Below are positions 41,852-54,338 of a DNA stretch of 64,000 nucleotides, piece by piece. The position numbers were made by a program, and so were the translations under genes. The notes under the pieces were generated by a model. The model ran no database searches. It was not told the origin of the DNA and worked only from the letters and a program-made list of their open reading frames with translations. This stretch comes from Paracoccus beibuensis (GTDB lineage Bacteria; Pseudomonadota; Alphaproteobacteria; Rhodobacterales; Rhodobacteraceae): NCBI RefSeq assembly GCF_026162625.1, contig NZ_JAOTBD010000003.1:1-64000 (forward strand). Reading direction: 5' to 3'. The first letter of the stretch is position 1; each line of letters opens with the position of its first letter.

Positions 41852-42418
41852 TCAGACGTCCCAGAAGCCTTCGTCGCCCATGTCGTCACCGACATCGGTC
41901 AACTCGGGCTCTTCGATGACGCCGGTGCCGTCGGCGTCGTATTCACCGAAGATGCCCGTGGTGAACTCGTCCTCGGTCAACGATCCGTCGGCATCGCTGT
42001 CGAATTCGCCGAACCTGCCGGTTTCGCCCCAGCCGTCAGCGAACTCGTTGGCCAGGATGACGCCGTCGCCGTCCACGTCCCAGGCCTGATGGTCGACGGT
42101 CTCGTCGCGGTTCCAGAAACCTGCGGCGCCGTCGGTCATGCCGTATTCGGCTTCGTTCAGGTCGCCGCTGGCATCGGTGTCATAGGTGCCATAGACGCCA
42201 TCGTCGAATTCATCCTGCGACAGCATGCTGTCGGTGTCGGTATCCCAGCCGCCGAAGATGCCGCGATCGCCAAGGCCGGTCGCGAATTCGTCCTGGCTCA
42301 GTGCGCCGTCCATGTCGGCGTCCCAGCCCGCGTCCATGGTCTGCGAGAGAGCCGGAGTCGTCGAAAGTGCAGCGAGGATGGCAGCCAGGCCGGTGAGCTT
42401 CGTGATCTGATCGGTCAT
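41852..42418 (-). CDS. EF-hand calcium-binding protein with signal peptide
   Basis: 188 aa. An N-terminal signal peptide (ending ALS) is followed by six EF-hand-like loops: DADMDGALSQDEF, DTDTDSMLSQDEF, DTDASGDLNEAEY, DVDGDGVILANEF, DSDADGSLTEDEF and DADGTGVIEEPEL. Spacing of 25-38 residues resembles tandem EF-hands, and the mature protein is very acidic. It should bind several calcium ions in the periplasm. Role unknown. The ATG at 42418 was chosen because the signal peptide starts there; the longer frame upstream has no signal. Confidence 0.8.
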   Translation of the reverse strand: MTDQITKLTGLAAILAALSTTPALSQTMDAGWDADMDGALSQDEFATGLGDRGIFGGWDTDTDSMLSQDEFDDGVYGTYDTDASGDLNEAEYGMTDGAAGFWNRDETVDHQAWDVDGDGVILANEFADGWGETGRFGEFDSDADGSLTEDEFTTGIFGEYDADGTGVIEEPELTDVGDDMGDEGFWDV

Positions 42419-42695
42419 GTCGTTCTCCGTCTTTGATGTCGGCGCTTTTTCGCCGCCCCACCAACCGGACCACGCGCGATGTGTTCCTGACGAACGCCAG
42501 AAAGTGACCCAGGCAACTGAATACACGTTAAATCTTTGTGTAGATGTACCTGCCTAAAACCCAGGCAAAGGCACCGGGGGCGGCGTCACCATGCCCTGCG
42601 CCACGGGCCTTGTCCACGCCTCGCGGTACTGCTCCGTCGGGTGCGGAACACCTGCGACGGCATCGCGTTGACACGCGAACTGATGCAGGTGGATC

Positions 42696-43290: not shown

Positions 43291-44352
43291 TCAGGGCGCC
43301 GGGCTCAGCCTCGCCGGGGGCAGCGAGGCATAAAAAGCGGCCAACGCATCGATATCGGCATCCTCGAGGTCCTCGGCCGCTTCGCGCATCAGCTCGGACA
43401 GCGGTCCGCCGCCGCGGTGGCCGTCGCGCCAGGCCTTCAGCTGGCTGCGCAGATAGGGCTCGTGCTGTCCGGACAGCGACGGGAACTCGTCCCTCAGCCG
43501 GTCGGGCCAGGGACCGTGGCAGGACCGGCAGGCAGGCACGTCGTCACCCTCTTGCGCCTCGGCCAGCGTCCGTCCCCGTTCGACCAGCCCCGGGTCGAGA
43601 TCCTGAGTGGCCGCGGGGCCGACGGCTTGGGTGGCGTAGTGTTCTGCCAGCGGCCCCAGCGCCTCCGGCGGCACCTCGGTCACGGCATGCTGCATGATGC
43701 CGCTATGGCGAAGTTCTCCCAGGAACGCGTCCAGCGACATGTCTAGGTAGGCGCGGTTCAGGATGTCCAGCCGTGGGACGTGCGGGTTTGGGGCATGGCC
43801 CTGCAAGCCGTGGCAGCTTGCGCAATAGGACAGGCCCGCCAGATCGGCGGGGGGCTGCGCGGTCAGGTCGCTGTAGGCGTCTTCCGACATTTGCCGGACG
43901 CGGACCAGGAAGGCCACGACCGACCAGACCTCGTCCTCGCGCGGGGCGGGCCACTGGGGCATGCCGCTCATCTTGACGCCGTGATAGACGATCCAGCCCA
44001 GCTCGTTCGGTTTCCAGTCGGCAACGGCATCGGTGATATGGGGCGGATGGGGCACCATCGCCCGCATCGTCTGAGTGGCCGTTTCACCGGGGCTGGCATG
44101 GCAGTGGCGGCAACTGGCGTCATAGTGGCGTACGCCAAGGGCGGCCATCTCGTCCGTCAGGGGGGGAACCTCGCTCATCGGTCGCGCCCGCAACTCGACC
44201 GAGTTCCGGAACGTCGTGTGCAGCACCCATGACACGCCCGGCAGGTGCCCGTGCCGTGCCGATACGTCGTAAAGGCCGCCAAAGACCACGGCGGCGGCGG
44301 CCGCCAGTCCAAGCCCTGCCACCGTCGCCAGCGTCCGGATCACCGTCTTCAT
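43291..44352 (-). CDS. Membrane-anchored tri-heme cytochrome c
   Basis: 353 aa. One N-terminal hydrophobic segment is a signal/anchor, followed by three heme motifs: CRHCH, CASCH and CRSCH, in three cytochrome c-like domains. Methionines such as MSGMPQWP could be distal ligands. It is the last gene of the left oxidase operon, overlapping the CtaG-like gene by four bases. It probably donates electrons to the oxidase, in the manner of tri-heme dehydrogenase subunits that feed terminal oxidases. The role is inferred from heme motifs and context. Confidence 0.83.
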   Translation of the reverse strand: MKTVIRTLATVAGLGLAAAAAVVFGGLYDVSARHGHLPGVSWVLHTTFRNSVELRARPMSEVPPLTDEMAALGVRHYDASCRHCHASPGETATQTMRAMVPHPPHITDAVADWKPNELGWIVYHGVKMSGMPQWPAPREDEVWSVVAFLVRVRQMSEDAYSDLTAQPPADLAGLSYCASCHGLQGHAPNPHVPRLDILNRAYLDMSLDAFLGELRHSGIMQHAVTEVPPEALGPLAEHYATQAVGPAATQDLDPGLVERGRTLAEAQEGDDVPACRSCHGPWPDRLRDEFPSLSGQHEPYLRSQLKAWRDGHRGGGPLSELMREAAEDLEDADIDALAAFYASLPPARLSPAP

Positions 44353-44921: not shown

Positions 44922-45325
44922 CTGCAGGTCGCCGCAAAGATCAGGGGCAGGGACGTGAAGAACACGCCCACGAAGGACACGATGGACAGAAGAAAGGCCG
45001 CGTGACCCAGGAACTCGTGCCGATCCTCGCCCACGCCCATCTCGTGTTCGTAGTCATAGTCGTCCAGCAGGTCCCATTGCTGCCACGACCGCCAGCCAAG
45101 CCAGCCGATGATCGCCAGCGCGACGACAGTCGCAACGCCAAGGCCCACGCGCAGGGGCAGCATCTGGCCGATCGGACCGGGCCATTTCACGCACCAGACC
45201 GCCGCCGCACCATAGCAGAGCGCGAAATGCGCGGCCCAGGCCAGCGGCGCGGCCGTGATCCGCGTCAGGCTGGCGCTTTCCTCGGCGAACTGGCGGGCGT
45301 CGGATGTCTGCTTGTCGTGGCTCAT
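44918..45325 (-). CDS. Small membrane protein of the left oxidase operon
   Basis: 135 aa. Three predicted helices: AAPLAWAAHFALCYGAAAV, GVATVVALAIIGWLGWRSW and AAFLLSIVSFVGVFFTSLPL. The loop has an acidic stretch DDYDYEHE. No domain recognised. The start overlaps the stop of the fused subunit I-III gene (ATGA), so it is co-translated and could be an accessory subunit (subunit IV-like) or an assembly factor. The right operon has a different small membrane protein (102 aa) in the equivalent place. Confidence 0.65.
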   Translation of the reverse strand: MSHDKQTSDARQFAEESASLTRITAAPLAWAAHFALCYGAAAVWCVKWPGPIGQMLPLRVGLGVATVVALAIIGWLGWRSWQQWDLLDDYDYEHEMGVGEDRHEFLGHAAFLLSIVSFVGVFFTSLPLIFAATCR

Positions 45326-47865
45326 GTCATCAACCTCGGGGCAATGGCGACCATGGCGCCGGTCACCAGGACGGTCAGACAGAGGAAGTGCCAGAACAGC
45401 AGGCTGTTCCACAGCGGCGCATCGTACCTGCGGGTGATCTTGCCGAAGGCCAGCCCGGCCAGGCAATAGCCCTGCAGGACGACCCCGGCGATCAGGTGGA
45501 CGATCACCCAGACGACCAGCGCCCACATCATCGCCGGATAAACGTGGGCGGTCGGGTCCATGTCCGGCAGCCACAGTGCCAGGATCAGGACGCCCCCGCC
45601 TGCACAGGCGGCCAGCATCGCGACCGCCAGCGCCGCCATGGCGCCCCTGCCCGCGTCGCGCCGCGCCCAGGCCGTCAGCGCCCAGCTGGCCACCACAAGG
45701 CCGGTGCCTATCGCCATCAAGACGGGGTTCGCGAACCCGGCCCCTTGCGGCGGAAACTGCGTGCTGGCCGTCCAGTAGAAGAAGACCGAGAAGACGAGGC
45801 TGGAAAACGCCGTCGCATCTGCCAGCATGGTGATCCAGACCGCCCACCAGCCGACCGCGTCCGGCCCCGAGACATAGAGCGGCAGGCGCAGGCCAAGGCC
45901 CGCATCCTTCGTCTCGGCCTCGGGGATCTCGGCGGTCGAGGTCCAGTTCCAGTAGATCACGCAGGCCACCGCCAACACCGCGCTGACGATGGCCGGCGGA
46001 TACCAGTGGAAGGTCGGAAAGATGAACGCCCCCCCGGTGAAGACCGCGGCCCAGATGGTGATCCAGGCGGGACCGGTGACCCGCTGCACATGCAGGGGGT
46101 GCGCATCGATGACGCTGGTGACCAGGGTCTCGCGCTTTCCCTCCTGCGCATCGGGAAGGTAATAGCGGCCGGCGTCGATGCGCTGTTGCATCTTGGGTTG
46201 CTGCCACAGGGGATAGCGCGTGTTGACGTAGGGGATCGACCGGATGCCCCAGGATTCAGCGGGGACGTTATGGGTCCATTCCAGCGTCCCCGCGTCCCAG
46301 GGGTTGCGCGGCGGGTCCGGCTGCTTGCCCTTGGGCCGCAACAGGTCATAGACGAAGATCAGCAGCCCCGTCGCCATCACGAACGCCCCGATTGTCGAGA
46401 TCATGTTCAGCCAGTTCCAGCCCAGGTCGCCCGGATAGGTGAAGACCCGGCGCGGCATGCCCCGCATGCCCGTCAGGTGCATCGGCAGGAACGTTACGTT
46501 GAAGCCGGTGAAGGCCAGCCAGAAGGCCCATCTGCCCAGACGCTCGGAGAGCTGCTTCTTGGCGATGACCGGATAGAAGTAATAGATGCCGCCGATGACC
46601 GGAAACAGCATGCCGCCGAACACCGTATAGTGCAGGTGCGCCACGATGAAATAGGTGTCATGGACTTGCCAGTCGAAAGGCACGATGGCGACCATGACGC
46701 CAGTCAGGCCGCCCGCGACGAAGATCGCCAGCGCGCCGGCGATCCACAGCATCGGGTGGATCATCCTGACGCGGCCGACCATCAGCGTCGCCACGAAGGC
46801 GAAGATCTGGATGCCGGTAGGCAGAACCACGGCCTCTGACGCGGCGGAAAAGAAGCCGAGGCTGATCGAGGGCAACCCGGTGGCGAACATGTGGTGCACC
46901 CACAGGCCGAAGCTGAGAAAGCCCGTCCCCACCGCCGAAAGCACGATCCAGGAATAGCCGACGATGGGGCGGCGCGCGGCCGTCGGGATGATCATCGCGG
47001 TGACGGCGATCGACGGCAGGAAGATGATATAGACCTCGGGATGGCCGAAGATCCAGAAGAGGTGCTGCCACAGCATCGGGTCTCCGCCGCGTTCCGGGTC
47101 GAAGAACGGCCAGTCGAAGCTGCGCTGCATCTCCAGCAGGAAGTCGCCGGCGATCAGGGGCGGGAAGGCGAAGACGATCATCCCGCCGACGACCAGCACG
47201 TACCAGGCGTAAAGCGGCATGATGTTGACGCGCATGCCCGGCGGTCGACACTTCAGGACGCCGACGATCAGCTCGACCGCGGCGGCGATGCTGGCCACCT
47301 CGATGAACGAGAGGCCAAGAAGCCAGATGTCCGTGCCGATGCCGCCGTGTTCGGTGGACAATGGCGGGTACATGAACCACCCCGCATTGGGCGCCGCATC
47401 GAAGAGGATCGAGCCCATGACGAAGATGCCGCCGATCACGAAGCACCAGAAGCCATAAGCCGACAGGCGCGGGAAGGGCATGTCCCGCGCGCCCAGCAGC
47501 GAGGGCAGGATCAGGATCGAGATCGCCTCGAAGATCGGCACGGCGAACAGGAACATCATCGCCGAGCCATGCATCGTGAAGAACTGGTTGTAGCGGTCGG
47601 CGTCCAGGAAGTCGTTTTCCGGCACCGCCAGCTGCACCCGCATCAGCAGGGCCAGGATCCCCGCCAGCAGCATGAAGAAGGTCGCGGTCAGGCAGTACCA
47701 GACGCCGACTTCGGTGTTGTTGACGGCCGACCAGTACCGCCAGCCGGGCGGCTGGGCCCAGACCTTGCGCAGCCGCTCCTCCTGTCCCTTCGCCACGTCA
47801 TCAGGAACCGGCTGGGCCAGCATCTTCTCGGTCGGGGGATAGGTGCCTTGGTCGCGGTCGGTCAT
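45322..47865 (-). CDS. Heme-copper oxidase, fused subunit I-III (left operon)
   Basis: 847 aa. The first about 560 residues are subunit I. Low-spin and high-spin heme histidines are in MHGSAMMFLF and VAHLHYTVFGG, CuB ligands in GHPEVYIIFLP and WVHHMF. The HPEVY tyrosine is kept. The C-terminal about 190 residues are a subunit III domain. The K-channel position of PTGIKxF is glutamine (PTGIQIF), and the D-channel entrance reads RDMPFPRLSAY instead of the usual PDMAFPRxNN. The GGFGN segment is replaced by FEAISI. Reads like an O2-reducing oxidase of the A type with unusual proton routes. Expected acceptor: O2. Confidence 0.88.
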   Translation of the reverse strand: MTDRDQGTYPPTEKMLAQPVPDDVAKGQEERLRKVWAQPPGWRYWSAVNNTEVGVWYCLTATFFMLLAGILALLMRVQLAVPENDFLDADRYNQFFTMHGSAMMFLFAVPIFEAISILILPSLLGARDMPFPRLSAYGFWCFVIGGIFVMGSILFDAAPNAGWFMYPPLSTEHGGIGTDIWLLGLSFIEVASIAAAVELIVGVLKCRPPGMRVNIMPLYAWYVLVVGGMIVFAFPPLIAGDFLLEMQRSFDWPFFDPERGGDPMLWQHLFWIFGHPEVYIIFLPSIAVTAMIIPTAARRPIVGYSWIVLSAVGTGFLSFGLWVHHMFATGLPSISLGFFSAASEAVVLPTGIQIFAFVATLMVGRVRMIHPMLWIAGALAIFVAGGLTGVMVAIVPFDWQVHDTYFIVAHLHYTVFGGMLFPVIGGIYYFYPVIAKKQLSERLGRWAFWLAFTGFNVTFLPMHLTGMRGMPRRVFTYPGDLGWNWLNMISTIGAFVMATGLLIFVYDLLRPKGKQPDPPRNPWDAGTLEWTHNVPAESWGIRSIPYVNTRYPLWQQPKMQQRIDAGRYYLPDAQEGKRETLVTSVIDAHPLHVQRVTGPAWITIWAAVFTGGAFIFPTFHWYPPAIVSAVLAVACVIYWNWTSTAEIPEAETKDAGLGLRLPLYVSGPDAVGWWAVWITMLADATAFSSLVFSVFFYWTASTQFPPQGAGFANPVLMAIGTGLVVASWALTAWARRDAGRGAMAALAVAMLAACAGGGVLILALWLPDMDPTAHVYPAMMWALVVWVIVHLIAGVVLQGYCLAGLAFGKITRRYDAPLWNSLLFWHFLCLTVLVTGAMVAIAPRLMT

Positions 47866-48839
47866 TTCAGCCCCATCAGATAGGCCGCCAGGGCCGCAAG
47901 GTCGCTTTCATCCAGGTGGTCATAGGCCGGCATCTCGGCCCCCGGTTTGATCGCCTCGGGGTTGGTGATCCAGGCCCGCAGCGCGTCGGCGGTCATCGGC
48001 AGGATGCCCGCAGCCAAGGCGGTCCGCCCACCCAGATGCGTCAGGTCCGGGCCGACGCGCCCGGCCGCCGGGGTGCCGCGAACCGCATGGCAGGCGCCGC
48101 AGCCTTCGCGCAGGAAGACCGCGCGGCCCGCGCCGCTCGATGTCGCTGGCAGGGCCTGTTCACGCAGCCAGCCATCGAAGGCCGCAGGCTCCATGATGAC
48201 TGCGGGAATCGCCATGAGGGCATGTGACAGGCCGCAGAACTCGGCGCATTGGCCACGGAAGGTGCCGGTTTCCGACGGGGCCAGCGTCATGCGCGTGATG
48301 CGGCCCGGGAACATGTCGGTCTTGCCGCCAAGCGCCGGGATCCAGAAGGAGTGGATGACCTCGCCCGCCGTCAGTTCGATCTCGGTTCGCTGGTCGACGG
48401 GCAGACGCAGCTCGTTCGCGGCGATGATGGGGGCGGTGGCCCCGTCGGGCCAGTATTCGACGCGCCACCACCACCGTTCGGCCGTGACGCGGACGCGCAG
48501 GCCGTCGTCGGGGGCGCGTTGCTCGCCCATCATCGGCAGGCTGTAGATCAGCAGGGCCGACAGGACCACCAGTGGAAAGAGGATGCCGCCGCCGATGATG
48601 ACGGCCTCGGCCAAGCGGCGCGACATCTTGCCGACGTGGATGCGGGTGACATAGAGAAAGAGGCCGTTCAGCGCGAACCAGATCACGACGGCTCCGGCCA
48701 GCATCACCCAGAAGAGGTTCAGCGTCGCCAGCGCGTCGACCCCTGCGGGCGAGAACATCGACTGGTTGCCGGCACAGCCCGCAGGCCCTATCAGCAGCCC
48801 GACCCGGGCAGCCCACCAGCCGAAGATGTTTCGCCGCAT
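47862..48839 (-). CDS. Cytochrome c oxidase subunit II with fused cytochrome c (left operon)
   Basis: 325 aa. The N-terminus has a lipobox-like GPAGC cleavage site, two membrane helices follow, then the CuA domain with VIHSFWIP and CAEFCGLSHALM (all ligands present). A C-terminal cytochrome c domain has CGACH and the distal methionine in GAEMPAYDHL. This is the caa3-type subunit II plan. It is first in its operon, divergent from the CtaG-like gene of the right operon. ATGA overlap with the fused subunit I-III gene. Confidence 0.87.
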   Translation of the reverse strand: MRRNIFGWWAARVGLLIGPAGCAGNQSMFSPAGVDALATLNLFWVMLAGAVVIWFALNGLFLYVTRIHVGKMSRRLAEAVIIGGGILFPLVVLSALLIYSLPMMGEQRAPDDGLRVRVTAERWWWRVEYWPDGATAPIIAANELRLPVDQRTEIELTAGEVIHSFWIPALGGKTDMFPGRITRMTLAPSETGTFRGQCAEFCGLSHALMAIPAVIMEPAAFDGWLREQALPATSSGAGRAVFLREGCGACHAVRGTPAAGRVGPDLTHLGGRTALAAGILPMTADALRAWITNPEAIKPGAEMPAYDHLDESDLAALAAYLMGLK

Positions 48840-49032
48840 CTGTCCCCGTCACCGTTGATTGGCGCCCTGTTCCTTCAACTTCCCGTGTTGCAGTTTGTTC
48901 CGGCGCCTTTGCCGGGGCGATGAAGGTTGATCGGTGTCGGTCGGCGGGAACCCCGGCAGGTTCAGACGGTTAGATCCCTGAGCCACGCCCTGTGATGGGG
49001 CGCGCGCGCATGCGATGGTGACAGGGACAGCG
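48840..49032. promoter_or_regulatory. Divergent promoter region between the two oxidase operons
   Basis: 193 bases between the left subunit II start and the right CtaG-like start. It should hold both promoters. No palindrome strong enough to propose an operator was found by eye. Confidence 0.45.
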
Positions 49033-49752
49033 ATGAACGACGATCTTCCGTATTGCGGGCCAGCGCCCATGCCCGGCCAGATCTGGACGGCGTGGAACCT
49101 GGACCCGGTGCTTCTGGCGGTGCTGGTCGTCGCGGGGGCGCTGCTTCTTGCCAGGTCGTCGTCCAGGGGGGCGGCGGCGATTGCGCTGGCGTCACTGACG
49201 GTGGCCTTCGTGTCGCCGCTTTGCGCGCTGACCGTGGCGCTTTTTTCGGCGCGGGCGGTGCATCACCTGCTGCTGGTGACGGTGGCGGCGCCTGCGCTGG
49301 CGCTGGCGCTGCCGCTTTTGCCTCGTGTCCCGGCCGGCCTGTCGCTGGCCGGAGTGACCGCGGCGATGATCGCGTGGCACCTGCCGTCCGTCTATTCCCA
49401 CATCTGGGCGTCCGAGGTGATGTACTGGGCGATGCAGGTGGCGATGCTGGTGCCGGCCTGGGGGTTCTGGTCGGCGATGCTGACGCCCCGCATGACGGCC
49501 GAGGATGCCTTTCGCCGCGCGCTGCTGGTCGGCGGGCTGGCGGGCATCATGGGCCTGATCGGGGCGCTGCTGACCTTCGCGCCCGGTACGCTCTATCTTC
49601 AGCATGTGGATGGGGCGGCCGCCTGGGGGCTGACGGCGCTGGCCGATCAGCAGCTGGCGGGGCTGCTGATGTGGGTGCCGGGGTTCCTGCCGCTTGCGGC
49701 GCTGGCGGCATGGATCCTGCAGCGCGGCTGGAAGGCCGGATTTGCCGCATGA
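49033..49752 (+). CDS. CtaG-like (caa3-type) oxidase assembly protein, right operon
   Basis: 239 aa with about seven predicted helices. Starts with a short polar segment (DLPYCGPAPMPGQIW) and shows VHHLLLVTVAAPAL, IAWHLPSVYSH and the closing ADQQLAGLLMWVPGFL motif of the family. The ATG at 49033 was chosen because AGGGAC lies upstream; an ATG at 49015 is also possible. It overlaps the next gene by four bases. It should help insert copper into the right oxidase. Confidence 0.82.
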   Translation: MNDDLPYCGPAPMPGQIWTAWNLDPVLLAVLVVAGALLLARSSSRGAAAIALASLTVAFVSPLCALTVALFSARAVHHLLLVTVAAPALALALPLLPRVPAGLSLAGVTAAMIAWHLPSVYSHIWASEVMYWAMQVAMLVPAWGFWSAMLTPRMTAEDAFRRALLVGGLAGIMGLIGALLTFAPGTLYLQHVDGAAAWGLTALADQQLAGLLMWVPGFLPLAALAAWILQRGWKAGFAA

Positions 49753-50249
49753 TCGTCGCCGCTCTCAAGTATCTGCACCTGGCGGCGATGCTCTGCTGGT
49801 GCGCGTCGCTGATCGCGCTGCCGCTGCTGCTCAGCCTCTATGGCGGGGCATGGCGGACTGATCGCGGCAGCGAGAAGCTGCAGGCGCGCTATGCCGAGTT
49901 CCGGCTGATCACCCATTACGGCTATGTCGCATTCGCAACGCCTGCCGCAGTGGTCGCCATCGCGGGGGGGACGGGGCTCATCTTCGCGGGCGACGTGTTC
50001 GACCTGTGGTTCGTGGCCAAGCTGGCCCTGGTGTCCGGAATGGCGCTGGTCCACGCATGGATCGGGCATTTCATCCTGATCTCGGCCGAACACCGGGGCA
50101 TGCACAACCTGCGGTCGCCGTTGATCCCGCTGGCGCTGGCCATTCCGCTGATGATGGGGGTGCTGTGGCTGGTGCTGGCCAAGCCCGACCTGAGCGGGCT
50201 GACCGACTGGATGCCGGACCTCATGCTGGTGCCGCGGGGGCAGACGTGA
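49749..50249 (+). CDS. CopD/HemJ-like membrane protein
   Basis: 166 aa with four predicted helices. It begins ALKYLHLAAMLCWCASLIAL and continues with LWFVAKLALVSGMALVHAWI, the histidine-containing helices typical of HemJ/CopD-type heme- or copper-associated membrane proteins. The gene is coupled to ctaG by ATGA. It could bind heme or help copper supply to the oxidase. Family assignment is by similarity of pattern, so confidence is moderate. Confidence 0.6.
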   Translation: MIVAALKYLHLAAMLCWCASLIALPLLLSLYGGAWRTDRGSEKLQARYAEFRLITHYGYVAFATPAAVVAIAGGTGLIFAGDVFDLWFVAKLALVSGMALVHAWIGHFILISAEHRGMHNLRSPLIPLALAIPLMMGVLWLVLAKPDLSGLTDWMPDLMLVPRGQT

Positions 50250-50257
50250 CAGCCGGT

Positions 50258-50773
50258 TCAGCCCTCGCGCTGCGCGCCGATGTGATAGTCGAAGACCAGC
50301 TTGCCGCCGTGCCAGCCGGTGATCCCCGTCATTCCTGCCGCCAAGGCCGATATCATCGCGCCCCAGGGCAGCACGGCGCCCACCGGGTCGTCCATGCGAA
50401 AGCCCCAGTTGAGTCCCAGCACCGACAGCAGCATCACCGCCAGCACGAAATGCGTCCAGCTGGCGCTGCGGATGCGGATGCCGGGGGCCATCAGCAGCTC
50501 CACCGTGCCGGTAACACCGGCCAGGACCCCCATCCCGAACGCCACGCCGGACCCCCAGAGCGCGACGCGCGGCCAGAACTCGTCCCCGGTGAACCAGTAC
50601 ATCGCATCGGCACCGAACACCGAGAACGCCAGCGCGATGGGGAAGGCCACCATCATCGCATGCAGCGGGTGGCCGGCGATGGCGATCTTGGTCTCGGTGT
50701 CGCTGAAGGCGACGTGCTCCTCGATCGGGTCGCTCAGCCGGCGTCGCTGCTTCCACGAATATTTCTTCCGCAT
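50258..50773 (-). CDS. DUF2231-family membrane protein
   Basis: 171 aa. Begins with a basic segment (MRKKYSWKQRRRL) followed by GHPLHAMMVAFPIALAF, the DUF2231 signature, and about four helices ending with ITGWHGGKLVFDY. It is on the opposite strand from the oxidase genes on both sides, and its ATG is only three bases from the GTG of the right subunit II gene. Function unknown; the family is common near respiratory gene sets. The converging end with the CopD-like gene leaves eight bases. Confidence 0.8.
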   Translation of the reverse strand: MRKKYSWKQRRRLSDPIEEHVAFSDTETKIAIAGHPLHAMMVAFPIALAFSVFGADAMYWFTGDEFWPRVALWGSGVAFGMGVLAGVTGTVELLMAPGIRIRSASWTHFVLAVMLLSVLGLNWGFRMDDPVGAVLPWGAMISALAAGMTGITGWHGGKLVFDYHIGAQREG

Positions 50774-50776
50774 AAG

Positions 50777-51487
50777 GTGTCCCCACTGCCCAAGTCCTGC
50801 CTTTACAAGCCCGCCGCTTTGCTGGCGGTTCCGCTGCTGGCTGCCTGCGACGGCCCTCTGAGCACACTGACCCCCGCCGGACCTGCGGCGGTCCAGATCG
50901 CGCGCCTGTGGTGGGCGATGCTGATCGGGTCGGGGCTGATCACCTTGCTGGTCATGGCGATGCTGTGGCGCGCGCTGCGCCACCAGTCGCACGACCACCC
51001 CGGACCTGCGGCCGAGCGTCGCTGGATCATCGGCTGGGGCCTGGGGTTTTCGCTGACGGTGCTGACCGTGCTTCTGGGCTTCGGCCTCTGGATCGGCGAA
51101 CGGATGATCGTGCGCAACGATGCGACGCCGCTGGTCGAGGCCCGTGCGGGGCGATGGGCGTGGGAATTCGTCCAGCCGGGACCGGGGGGCGCGCCGGTGA
51201 CGACGCAGGGGATCCTCTATGTCCCGGCGGGGCAGCCTTTCGATGTCGCGATCACGTCGTTCGACGTGATCCACAGCTTCTGGGTGCCGCGTCTTGGCGG
51301 CAAGATGGATGCCATTCCGGGCCATCGGAACGTGCATCGCCTGATGGCGGCGGAACCGGGCATCTACGAAGGACTCTGCGCGGAGTTCTGCGGGCTGGGC
51401 CACAGTTTCATGAACTTCCGGGTGATCGCCTATGACCCGGCGGGCCCGCTTCCCGCATTCACCGACGCGCCGGAGGGCCGACCATGA
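50777..51487 (+). CDS. Cytochrome c oxidase subunit II without heme domain (right operon)
   Basis: 236 aa. A lipobox VPLLAAC near residue 22 suggests a lipoprotein. Two helices are followed by the CuA domain with DVIHSFWVP and LCAEFCGLGHSFM, which keeps all CuA ligands. Unlike the left operon's subunit it lacks the cytochrome c domain. The GTG at 50777 is the best start, though it has no strong ribosome binding site and sits next to the divergent DUF2231 start. ATGA overlap with subunit I-III. Confidence 0.82.
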   Translation: MSPLPKSCLYKPAALLAVPLLAACDGPLSTLTPAGPAAVQIARLWWAMLIGSGLITLLVMAMLWRALRHQSHDHPGPAAERRWIIGWGLGFSLTVLTVLLGFGLWIGERMIVRNDATPLVEARAGRWAWEFVQPGPGGAPVTTQGILYVPAGQPFDVAITSFDVIHSFWVPRLGGKMDAIPGHRNVHRLMAAEPGIYEGLCAEFCGLGHSFMNFRVIAYDPAGPLPAFTDAPEGRP

Positions 51488-54033
51488 CCCCAAGGCCCCA
51501 GGACGACACGCAGAACGACGCCATCGACGTGACCGCGGACATCCCGGCCAACCCGCCGCAGCGCGCCCTGCGCCTGCACCGCGAGCTGGACGAGGTCTGG
51601 CGGGACCTGCCGGGCTGGCGGGGGTTCTTCACCTCGGTCAACCACAGCACGATCGGCAAGCGCTTCATGGCGACCGCCTTCGTCTTCTTTGCCATCGGCG
51701 GCGTGCTGGCCATGATGATCCGCGCGCAGCTCGCGACTCGGGACGGGGCCTTCCTGGACACCGAGCTCTATAACCAGATCTTCACGATGCATGGCAGCAT
51801 CATGATGTTCCTGTTCGCGATCCCCATGCTGGAAGGGCTGGCGCTGTGGCTTCTGCCCAAGATACTTGGCACGCGGGACATGGCCTATCCGCGGCTCAGC
51901 GCGCTTGGATACTTCTGCTATCTGTTCGGGGGCATCGTCATCGTGCTGTCGCTGCTGTTCGGGGTCGCGCCGAACGGCGGCTGGTTCATGTATGTGCCCC
52001 TGACCGACAAGACATACTCGCCGGGCATCAATGCCGACGTGTGGCTGCTGGGAGTCACCTTCGTCGAGATCAGCGCCATGGCCGCCGCAATCGAGATCAC
52101 CGTGACCATCCTGCGCTGTCGCGCCGCCCACATGCCGCTGACGCGGATGCCGCTGATGGGCTGGTACCTGCTGGGCACGGCGGTGATGATGCTGGTGGGC
52201 TTTCCGCCGCTGATCCTCGGGTCGATCCTCTTGGAGGTGCAGCGCGCCTTCGACTGGCCGTTCTTCGACGTGGCGCGCGGAGGATCGCCGCTTCTGTGGC
52301 AGCACCTCTTCTGGCTGTTCGGCCACCCCGAGGTCTATATCATCTTCCTGCCCGCCGCCGGGGCGTTGTCGACGATCATCCCGATCCTGTCGCGCACGAC
52401 GATCCTGGGCTATGGCGCCCTGGTCGCGGCGGTGATCGGGCTTGTGTTCCTGTCCTTCGGCCTTTGGGTCCACCATATGTTCACTGTAGGCATCCCGCAC
52501 ATGGCGCTGTCGTTCTTCTCGGCCGCGTCGGCGCTGGTGGCGGTGCCCACGGCGGTGCAGGTCTTCGCCTGGATCGGCACCATGTGGGAGGGCCGCGTCC
52601 AGTTCCGGCTGCCGATGCTGTACATCATGGGGTTCTTCGCGACCTTCGTCATGGGCGGTCTGACCGGCGTGATGCTTGCGATGGTGCCCTTCAACTGGCA
52701 GGCGCATGACACGCATTTCGTCGTGGCCCACCTGCACTATGTCCTGATCGGCGGCTTCGTCTTTCCCATGCTGGCGGCCATCGCCTACTGGATGCCGCTG
52801 ATCTGCGGGCGCTGGCGGGTCAGGGGACTGGGCGAGGCCGCGTTCTGGATGATCTTCATCGGCTTTCACGGCACCTTCTTCATCATGCACCTGACCGGCC
52901 TTCTGGGCATGCGCCGCCGCATCGCCGTCTATCCCGAAAACGCGGAATGGGAATGGCTGAACCTGGTCTCGTCGGGCTTCGGGATGGTGCAGGCGGCGGG
53001 CTTTGCGCTGTTCGCCTTCGACGTCGTCATGCAGTGGATGTTCGGCCGGCGCAGCTGGCGCAACCCGTGGCAGGCGCCGACGCTGGAATGGGCCATGCCG
53101 CTGCCGGCACCGTCCTACAACTTCGCCTCTCTGCCGGGACCACGGCAGCCCGACGCTGGCGCCCTGTTGGCGTTGGCGCGGGGCGAGGGGCTGCTGGCCG
53201 GTGCGCCGCGCGGTTGGCGAGAGACCCTGGCCGTCGAACCCGGCAGCGGCAAGCCGCAGCATGTGGCGGTCCTGGCCACGAACACCGCCCTTCCCGTCGC
53301 CACCGCGGCCGCGATCGGCAGCTTCTTCGGGCTGATGCTGGCGGGGCTCTATTGGCTGGCGCCGCTGGGGATCATCGCGACGATGGTGGTGGTCTGGCGG
53401 TGGGGCGCCCTGATGGGAACGGAGCGCGACCACCCGCCGGTCCAGGTTGCGCCGGACATGGCGCTGCCGCTGCACTGGCAGGTCCGCACCACCCTGGGAC
53501 AGACAGGAACCATGGTTCTGCTGGTGGCGGATGCGACGCTCTACGGGTCGCTGCTGTTCGGGGTCGGCTTTCTGACGGTGGTGGCTCCGGGCTGGCCCCC
53601 GCCCGACAGCGGCGTCGGCACCGGCTGGATGCTTCTGCTGGCGCTTGCCGCATTGGCGCTGATGGCGGCCGGGGCAATCGCCGCCCGCCTGGCCGAAAGT
53701 CGCCGGGCGCAGGCCGGCGGGCGCGTCTGGACGCGCATCGGCCTTGTCTTGGCGGGCTTGGCGCTGGTCATGCTGGTCGGGCTGGGCTGGGGACTTGACG
53801 ACCCGACGCGTCACGCGCGCGATGCACTGCGCGGGGCCATTCTGGGCTTTGCAGTCGTGCATGGAGTGATTGTGCTGATGCTGGCGCTGCGGTCTCATGT
53901 CGATGCCCGCCGCGGCCGCATCGGACTTGAACGGCGCGGCGCGGTGCCCGCCTGGCAGCTGTTTCAGGTCTTCTGGCTGGGGACGACGGCGGCGTCGCTG
54001 GCCGTGGTTGTGGCGCAGGAGGTGCTGGCATGA
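51484..54033 (+). CDS. Heme-copper oxidase, fused subunit I-III (right operon)
   Basis: 849 aa, the same fused plan as the left operon but clearly divergent from it. Ligand motifs present are MHGSIMMFLFA, GHPEVYIIFLPA, WVHHMF and VAHLHYVLIGG. The K-channel motif reads PTAVQVF (glutamine instead of lysine). The D-channel entrance reads RDMAYPRLSALGY (no NN), and GGFGN is replaced by LEGLAL. The subunit III part follows after about residue 600. Both oxidases share the unusual features, so they are likely ancestral to this sub-branch, not recent damage. Confidence 0.88.
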   Translation: MTPRPQDDTQNDAIDVTADIPANPPQRALRLHRELDEVWRDLPGWRGFFTSVNHSTIGKRFMATAFVFFAIGGVLAMMIRAQLATRDGAFLDTELYNQIFTMHGSIMMFLFAIPMLEGLALWLLPKILGTRDMAYPRLSALGYFCYLFGGIVIVLSLLFGVAPNGGWFMYVPLTDKTYSPGINADVWLLGVTFVEISAMAAAIEITVTILRCRAAHMPLTRMPLMGWYLLGTAVMMLVGFPPLILGSILLEVQRAFDWPFFDVARGGSPLLWQHLFWLFGHPEVYIIFLPAAGALSTIIPILSRTTILGYGALVAAVIGLVFLSFGLWVHHMFTVGIPHMALSFFSAASALVAVPTAVQVFAWIGTMWEGRVQFRLPMLYIMGFFATFVMGGLTGVMLAMVPFNWQAHDTHFVVAHLHYVLIGGFVFPMLAAIAYWMPLICGRWRVRGLGEAAFWMIFIGFHGTFFIMHLTGLLGMRRRIAVYPENAEWEWLNLVSSGFGMVQAAGFALFAFDVVMQWMFGRRSWRNPWQAPTLEWAMPLPAPSYNFASLPGPRQPDAGALLALARGEGLLAGAPRGWRETLAVEPGSGKPQHVAVLATNTALPVATAAAIGSFFGLMLAGLYWLAPLGIIATMVVVWRWGALMGTERDHPPVQVAPDMALPLHWQVRTTLGQTGTMVLLVADATLYGSLLFGVGFLTVVAPGWPPPDSGVGTGWMLLLALAALALMAAGAIAARLAESRRAQAGGRVWTRIGLVLAGLALVMLVGLGWGLDDPTRHARDALRGAILGFAVVHGVIVLMLALRSHVDARRGRIGLERRGAVPAWQLFQVFWLGTTAASLAVVVAQEVLA

Positions 54034-54338
54034 TCTGGCTGGCGCGCGCCCTTGCGGGTCCGATGCTGTGGGGCGCGCTGTTTTCCGCCGTCTATGCGCT
54101 GCATGGGGCCGGTTGCAACCTGGGCTGGATCGACGTGCGGCTGGGGCCGGCGGATCTGCACCATGCGGCGATGTGGGCCGTCTGGGCCGCAGGGCTGGCG
54201 GTTCACGTGCTTCTGGTCAGGACGATGCCGGCAGGGCAGGGGCGCCAGAGGAAGATCATCACCGCCGCCAGTTGGATCGGCCTTGTCGCCAGCGCCTTCA
54301 CGCTGTTTCCCGTCATTGCCACCTCGACCTGCTTCTGA
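54030..54338 (+). CDS. Small membrane protein of the right oxidase operon
   Basis: 102 aa with about three predicted helices: LAGPMLWGALFSAVYALHGA, LHHAAMWAVWAAGLAVHVLL and ASWIGLVASAFTLFPVIATS. The start overlaps the subunit I-III stop by four bases, so it is co-translated. Histidines cluster in the second helix. No domain recognised; candidate oxidase subunit or assembly factor. Confidence 0.62.
   Translation: MIWLARALAGPMLWGALFSAVYALHGAGCNLGWIDVRLGPADLHHAAMWAVWAAGLAVHVLLVRTMPAGQGRQRKIITAASWIGLVASAFTLFPVIATSTCF

Follow-up and report, generated by a model that had tools for sequence, protein, structure and literature searches.

How proton uptake is shared between the D- and K-channels, and what allows an A-type oxidase to pump, have been learned largely from mutating single residues in a small number of model enzymes. 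In the subunit I+III fusions P0001 and P0002 of Paracoccus beibuensis, nature has replaced the same positions, with a consistent and co-inherited set of residues, in an enzyme that must work. Both are encoded within the 64,000 nt stretch of DNA analysed here (assembly GCF_026162625.1, contig NZ_JAOTBD010000003.1, positions 1-64,000), which is termed the window and to which all coordinates refer; residue numbers without a protein name are those of the P. denitrificans enzyme.

Fused COX1-3 oxidases are named in published schemes as COX operon types a and a-II and as 'A1 type, subtype a', in the portions of PMC4013037 and PMC6431628 available to us. These types of Degli Esposti resemble the P. 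beibuensis enzymes in having the COX1-3 fusion, or a short COX3, within an operon that also encodes subunit II and CtaG; by gene layout, rather than by sequence lists, they are probably the home of the family described below. The same portions of the two papers are silent on Gln354, E108, E190 and E199 and on the altered subunit II; filing the family under A1 would rest on E278. The caa3 oxidase of Thermus thermophilus (2yev) is similar in its fold, in its fused subunits I and III and in the cytochrome c fused to its subunit II, but has lysine where P0001 has glutamine (ptgvklf against ptgiqif). The canonical aa3 oxidases of Paracoccus and its relatives have the active site, E278, Y280 and D124 in common with the new family, in which, by comparison, K354, N113, N199, G190 and the subunit II glutamate are all replaced, as is N131 in most members. 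B- and C-type oxidases likewise lack the canonical lysine; according to the accessible sections of PMC3084760 their K-channels are of alternative kinds and D-channel residues are missing, whereas the present family has E278, usually D124, and a D side enriched in acids.

Departures from the canonical channels have been noted before: K-channel variants and losses are discussed for archaeal family-A enzymes (PMC8239418), and a classifier published in 2011 (Sousa 2011) found 4 of 1216 curated sequences to be without the channel residues of their own type (PMC3084760), as given in the parts of those papers open to us. No description of the Gln354 and glutamate set, or of the subunit II change, was found in the available text of PMC8239418, PMC4013037, PMC3084760, PMC6431628 and PMC9145763, supplements and subscription papers lying outside this coverage, and a prior description of the residue set is possible. 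The oxidase family is known; what appears new, within the reach of these texts, is probably the linked set of channel residues.

Channel and active-site residues of the two fusions

HMMER alignments of both fusions to solved oxidases place Q353 of P0001 and Q359 of P0002 under K354, in agreement with the first-pass annotation of the window, which had proposed glutamine for the K-channel lysine in both proteins. Also borne out were its statements that the D-channel entrance aspartate, the glutamate and tyrosine of HPEVY and all metal ligands remain, and that the GGFGN segment is replaced: D124 corresponds to D128 in P0001 and D132 in P0002, E278 to E277 and E283, and Y280 to Y279 and Y285, respectively; H94, H276, H325, H326, H411, H413, R473 and R474 are retained in both fusions; and GGFGN has become EAISI in P0001 and EGLAL in P0002. 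The asparagine pair N131-N132 is indeed Ser-Ala in both, as had been claimed, but only N131 figures in the published D-channel list (in the accessible part of PMC3084760), and Ala132 is not specific to glutamine enzymes, being found also in the lysine-bearing L121 and L120. In addition, D399 is Asn in P0002 and P0001 has Ala at 291. Of the 12 published A-type channel residues, six are retained in P0001 and five in P0002.

Three further features lie beyond the earlier annotation: new glutamates at positions 108, 190 and 199 of both fusions (Table 1), a change in subunit II, and a third Gln354 enzyme, L002, in the same genome. An AlphaFold2 model of P0001 (predicted local distance difference test score 82.8, predicted template modelling score 0.87) places all three glutamates within long helices. 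The closest fold to P0001 was 2yev_A, with a Z score of 34.3 over 750 residues, and the CtaD_CoxA model matched P0001 with an E value of 7.1e-206, above the curated cut-off, and P0002 with one of 3.6e-200, just below it.

A family sharing glutamine 354 and three glutamates

Gln354 was found in 122 of 152 distinct subunit I sequences. Every one of the 122 has both E190 and E199, which are both absent from all 24 sequences with Lys354; E108 is present in 118/122, the exceptions being two gaps, one Gly and one Gln, and none of the three glutamates occurs in the 30 sequences without Gln354. The T344 position is Ser throughout the Gln354 rows (122/122). N113, N131 and N199 are all kept in 24/24 lysine rows, while N131 survives in just nine of the 122 glutamine enzymes, and the number of residues retained from the published 12 is 3-6 in the Gln354 family and 10-12 in the lysine enzymes. 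Q354, E190 and E199 remain invariant in 27/27 members that are less than 80% identical to each other. The Gln/Glu residue set is a family trait, and not a product of chance.

These sequences came from several sources: 592 confirmed candidates on genome contigs, of which the best 80 loci were used; draws of 249 genomes from the phylum (30 loci) and of 149 from the family (up to 20 loci); a further phylum draw of 299 genomes, overlapping the first and made with the sister protein as query (20 loci); and 902 plasmid records, of which 19 were taken. Three other-frame or antisense open reading frames were dropped before residues were counted, and merging identical cores reduced 173 subunit I rows to 152, comprising 122 with Gln354, 24 with Lys, four with Ala or Thr and two haloarchaeal sequences with Met or Ile. 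Sampling was mostly by family-member query, hence 122 against 24 is not indicative of relative frequency; the lysine set is small and mostly proteobacterial, and most of the outgroups were taken from plasmid records and the window's own phylum.

The heme and CuB residues H276, H325, H326, H411 and H413, together with Y280, are present in all 122 Gln354 sequences, and H94 in 120 (the other two having gaps), and on these residues the family consists of heme-copper oxygen reductases. E278 is likewise found in 122/122, so that the tyrosine in its place which distinguishes the A2 type occurs in none. The published residue definition of the A type (K354; the D124/N199/N113/N131/Y35/S134/S193/E278 set) does not describe these enzymes: the K354 position is Gln in both window proteins and, as a consequence of how the family was delimited, in all 122 members, although D124 and E278 themselves persist in both window proteins. 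Sequence, fold and a tree containing no B- or C-type rows nonetheless all place them in that type. Hence the definition misfits a widespread clade.

That tree was built from 44 of 145 rows, following the removal of near-copies, rows with more than 25% gaps and rows at least 80% identical to another, and with the trait columns included. The 27 rows of the Gln354 family form one side of a branch with support of 99/98, and join the two rows of a fused family with Trp278 and Ala354 at 100/99. The residue changes look like a single event, perhaps after or along with the loss of the lysine in a shared stem, the root being unsure.

Three narrower descriptions of the trait were considered and discarded. 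It is not bound to the I-III fusion: 112/122 glutamine enzymes have at least 300 residues after R474 and are fused, whilst nine have around 170 and are unfused, and L022 has 257. Neither is it limited to the paired arrangement seen in the window, as the DUF2231 and CopD genes of the second cassette adjoin the first cassette in only one of 73 loci of at least 11 kb (L006, from Paracoccus rhizosphaerae). Nor is there a fixed link to D124, which is Asn in 8/122 sequences, Glu in two and a gap in one. Hence the pair of oxidases lacking canonical residues that the first-pass annotation singled out is real, but is not special as a pair, and instead represents a family of wide distribution: a residue-checked member was found in at least 15 of the 249 genomes of the phylum draw, 21 of the 149 family-draw genomes have a match at an E value of 1e-140 or better, and one locus from the Planctomycetota, L023, is among the matches listed.

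The subclade with D124N (8/122), the named members of which are Rhizobium and Bradyrhizobium, retains E190 and E199. The enzymes L097-L100, L117, L146, L151 and L160 are unfused Gln354 oxidases with D124N, in which key residues of both classical subunit I channels are altered; in L146, subunit III is encoded by a short gene of its own.

The K-channel mouth and the search for a replacement lysine

The first-pass annotation had proposed that a lysine placed in the K-channel from another position would overturn its view of these enzymes. Ionizable columns were sought that are present in at least 85% of the 27 non-redundant family members and in fewer than half of the lysine enzymes; those passing were Y87, E108, R123, E190, E199, E246, H403, D506, R554 and E555. 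None of these conserved, family-specific columns is a lysine, and three are glutamates on transmembrane helices II and IV. E246, present in 113/122, presumably lies near the outer face. With the looser limit of lysine in at least 30% of the 122 sequences, only positions 16, 206 and 446 appeared, and none was taken as a substitute for K354. Of the three, only position 206, which is Lys in 81 and Arg in 35 of the 122, is strongly enriched over the other sequences, and it lies at the end of transmembrane helix IV, outside the K-channel stretch.

In subunit II, the glutamate of the motif ExxWTxxP, which we take to be the K-channel entrance, was identified by alignment to the Rhodobacter protein. 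The aligned residue is hydrophobic in all 116 partner rows, near-copies included (43 Ile, 29 Trp, 21 Val, 16 Leu, 5 Phe and 2 Ala), and no Asp or Glu lies within the 12 residues that follow it in any of them. This set of 116 omits the canonical loci and L001, L101, L116 and L118; nine canonical subunit II rows were picked by the ExxWTxxP motif itself, and hence have the glutamate by definition. Within subunit I, two other positions of the channel vary across the family: that of T351 is Ala or Met in 32/122 sequences, and that of S291 is Ser or Thr in 60/122 and Ala in 62/122. The mouth of the K-channel is altered family-wide, and may be partly replaced in some members.

Proposed proton entry through a rebuilt D-channel, and the competing explanations

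The reading we favour, with a probability of about 0.46, is that in these A-family oxidases the K-channel is disabled and protons travel through a D-channel rebuilt with glutamates. Its basis is the residues, their co-inheritance, the subunit II change and the intact active site; that the D route carries all of the protons we infer from these. Electrons would enter via the CuA site of subunit II, which in one enzyme has its own cytochrome c domain and is probably supplied by a neighbouring di-heme cytochrome c, and would then reach heme a3, CuB and Tyr280 in the ordinary way. Since the active site, CuA and E278 are all retained, these enzymes would be expected to use cytochrome c as electron source for the reduction of oxygen. 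The lysine route used in reducing the active site is changed both at its mouth, through the replacement of the subunit II glutamate by Ile, and at its middle, through that of Lys by Gln; it would be shut because it has no lysine, no acid at the usual entrance and often no Ser291. The protons for chemistry, and any that are pumped, would instead enter through the D-type channel, where a glutamate relay consisting of E108 on transmembrane helix II and E190 and E199 on helix IV would take the place of the asparagine gate N113/N131/N199 and deliver them to E278. Position 108 lies four residues before that of N113 and hence on the same face of the helix, and N199 belongs to the published D-channel residues in the accessible part of PMC3084760. 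The first-pass annotation had expected substitutions at these positions to uncouple or slow the enzyme; K354 and the aligned subunit II glutamate have indeed gone, but the phenotypes of mutants are not transferable to a conserved state, and the conservation of three co-inherited glutamates on helices II and IV resembles compensation rather than damage. A stronger form, that a single D-type inlet serves both chemistry and pumping through the three extra glutamates, as a mirror image of the K-only B and C types, is possible but put forward tentatively. Were it true, chemical and pumped protons would have to be gated within one channel, or not at all.

Several observations weigh against a rebuilt D-channel feeding the whole reaction. 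An orientation of E108 and E190 towards the channel is suggested by helix periodicity; E190 and E199, being nine residues apart, would fall on opposite faces of helix IV, such that E190 may not line the channel, and its role is the least certain of the three. All members appear to share one origin, so the association between the residues would count as a single event. The invariance of Gln354 (122/122) suggests that this residue has some role, Thr or Ser is kept at position 351 in 90/122 sequences, and 42/110 distinct subunits II, including both window proteins, have an acid 4-6 residues before the old entrance position, about one turn to the cytoplasmic side, which could itself serve as an entrance. 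These last three features favour the principal competing explanation, namely a lysine-free K-channel that still conducts by means of Gln354, waters, Thr351 or Ser291 (Ser or Thr being found at 291 in about half of the family) and Tyr280; B and C types are also accepted to have alternative K-channels without Lys354, according to the sections of PMC3084760 available. Such a channel would nevertheless have to operate with the aligned entrance glutamate lost in 116/116 rows, with no acid below it in 68/110 distinct subunits II, and with Ala at the Ser291 position in 62/122 sequences, P0001 among them, and Ala or Met at that of Thr351 in 32/122; we regard it as doubtful, verging on unlikely.

A different proposal, overlapping with the favoured one, is that the rebuilt D-channel feeds the active site and pumps nothing, making the enzyme an electron sink of lower coupling. 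An acid stands at the N199 position in 122/122 sequences and N131 is retained in only 9/122, and acids at N207 and N139 of the Rhodobacter sphaeroides enzyme, which we take to be N199 and N131 in the present numbering, reportedly decouple pumping whilst turnover continues. Point mutants in a foreign background are a poor guide to an evolved channel, and the loss of pumping is perhaps best regarded as a real possibility somewhat short of even odds. An activity other than oxygen reduction, such as that of a nitric oxide reductase, is very improbable: the non-canonical channels are all that would suggest it, whereas H276, E278, Y280 and the other histidine ligands are kept throughout the 122 sequences (H94 in 120, with two gaps), the CuA motifs are present, the best fold match is a caa3 oxidase, and the cross-linked tyrosine is described as missing from nitric oxide reductases in the available part of PMC3084760. 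It was ruled out on Tyr280 and E278. More improbable still is that these are decayed or dispensable genes with drifting channel residues; the canonical Lys354 oxidase L001 in the same genome might make them redundant, but the frames are open, the operons complete and the changed residues invariant in 27/27 diverse members.

The Gln354 oxidases thus offer a natural test of respiratory proton pumping. Should turnover prove fast, the K-channel lysine would be dispensable for A-type chemistry given a rebuilt D-channel; should there be no pumping, the substitution of an acid for the asparagine gate would constitute a natural decoupling switch.

Related oxidases lacking both Gln354 and Lys354

The sister fused family (L101, L116, L153 and L154) is likewise without Lys354, but differs from the Gln354 family in lacking E278, in keeping D124, N113, N131 and N199, and in having none of the three glutamates. 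L116:4968-7598, on a Burkholderia multivorans plasmid, and the other three share the motif HPWVY, in which Trp takes the place of E278, and their K354 position is Ala or Thr; 4/4 distinct rows retain D124 and N113/N131/N199, and by the published residues these oxidases are neither A1 nor A2. Haloarchaeal plasmids supply a further case in which the K-channel lysine has been lost naturally: in the A-family enzymes L118 and L147, K354 is replaced by Met or Ile and T351 by Phe. The public label 'cbb3-type cytochrome c oxidase subunit I' carried by L152, L118, L147 and L150 is misleading, as all four align with the A family.

Organisation of the locus

The two oxidase cassettes are divergently oriented. 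That on the minus strand encodes, in order, a subunit II with a cytochrome c domain, the I+III fusion, a small membrane protein, a CtaG-type factor and a di-heme cytochrome c, which is the probable electron donor; this gene content is stable across 45 near relatives. The plus-strand cassette consists of CtaG, a CopD-like protein, DUF2231 (on the opposite strand), a subunit II without cytochrome c, the I+III fusion and a small protein. The CuA ligand motif C-x-E-x-C-G-x-x-H-x-x-M is present in both P0003 and P0004, which makes these cytochrome c oxidases rather than quinol oxidases. In P0004, as in P0003, the aligned entrance glutamate is replaced by Ile, with a glutamate five residues earlier.

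Table 1. Oxidase genes, key codons and neighbouring genes in the window
Feature	Coordinates	Strand	Remarks
EF-hand repeat protein close to the oxidase genes	41852-42526	minus
Di-heme cytochrome c, hydrophobic N-terminus	43291-44352	minus	45/45 near relatives, excluding subunit II and single-heme open reading frames
Caa3_CtaG-type assembly factor, 190 aa	44349-44921	minus	43/45 near relatives
Small membrane protein, 135 aa	44918-45325	minus	In operon of 45/45 near relatives
Subunit I+III fusion P0001, 847 aa	45322-47865	minus	Gln at K354; Glu at 108, 190, 199
Q353 codon of P0001	46807-46809	minus	K354 position
E198 codon of P0001	47272-47274	minus	N199 position, D-channel
E189 codon of P0001	47299-47301	minus	G190 position, transmembrane helix IV
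E113 codon of P0001	47527-47529	minus	Position 108, transmembrane helix II; four residues before N113 position
Subunit II P0003, CuA site and C-terminal cytochrome c domain	47862-48839	minus	Ile in place of Glu at the aligned K-channel entrance position; Glu four residues earlier
Second Caa3_CtaG-type assembly factor	49015-49752	plus
CopD-like membrane protein	49749-50249	plus	UPF0093 match below cut-off; gene order kept in L126, L145, L152
DUF2231 membrane protein	50258-50773	minus	Gene order kept in L126, L145, L152
Subunit II P0004, CuA, without cytochrome c domain, lipoprotein-like start	50777-51487	plus	GTG start inferred
Second subunit I+III fusion P0002, 849 aa	51484-54033	plus	Gln at K354; Glu at 108, 190, 199
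E117 codon of P0002	51832-51834	plus	Position 108
E195 codon of P0002	52066-52068	plus	G190 position
E204 codon of P0002	52093-52095	plus	N199 position
Q359 codon of P0002	52558-52560	plus	K354 position
Small protein after second fusion, 102 aa, hydrophobic sequence	54030-54338	plus	No family match

The nearest named relative among the matches listed is P. rhizosphaerae LMG 21293 (L006), the first fusion of which is 93% identical. The P. beibuensis genome has five COX1-family matches in all: the canonical Lys354 enzyme L001, P0001, P0002, the Gln354 enzyme L002, and L005. L002, the third Gln354 oxidase, is of the unfused type, keeps N131, and lies on the window's own contig around 42 kb past the window end.

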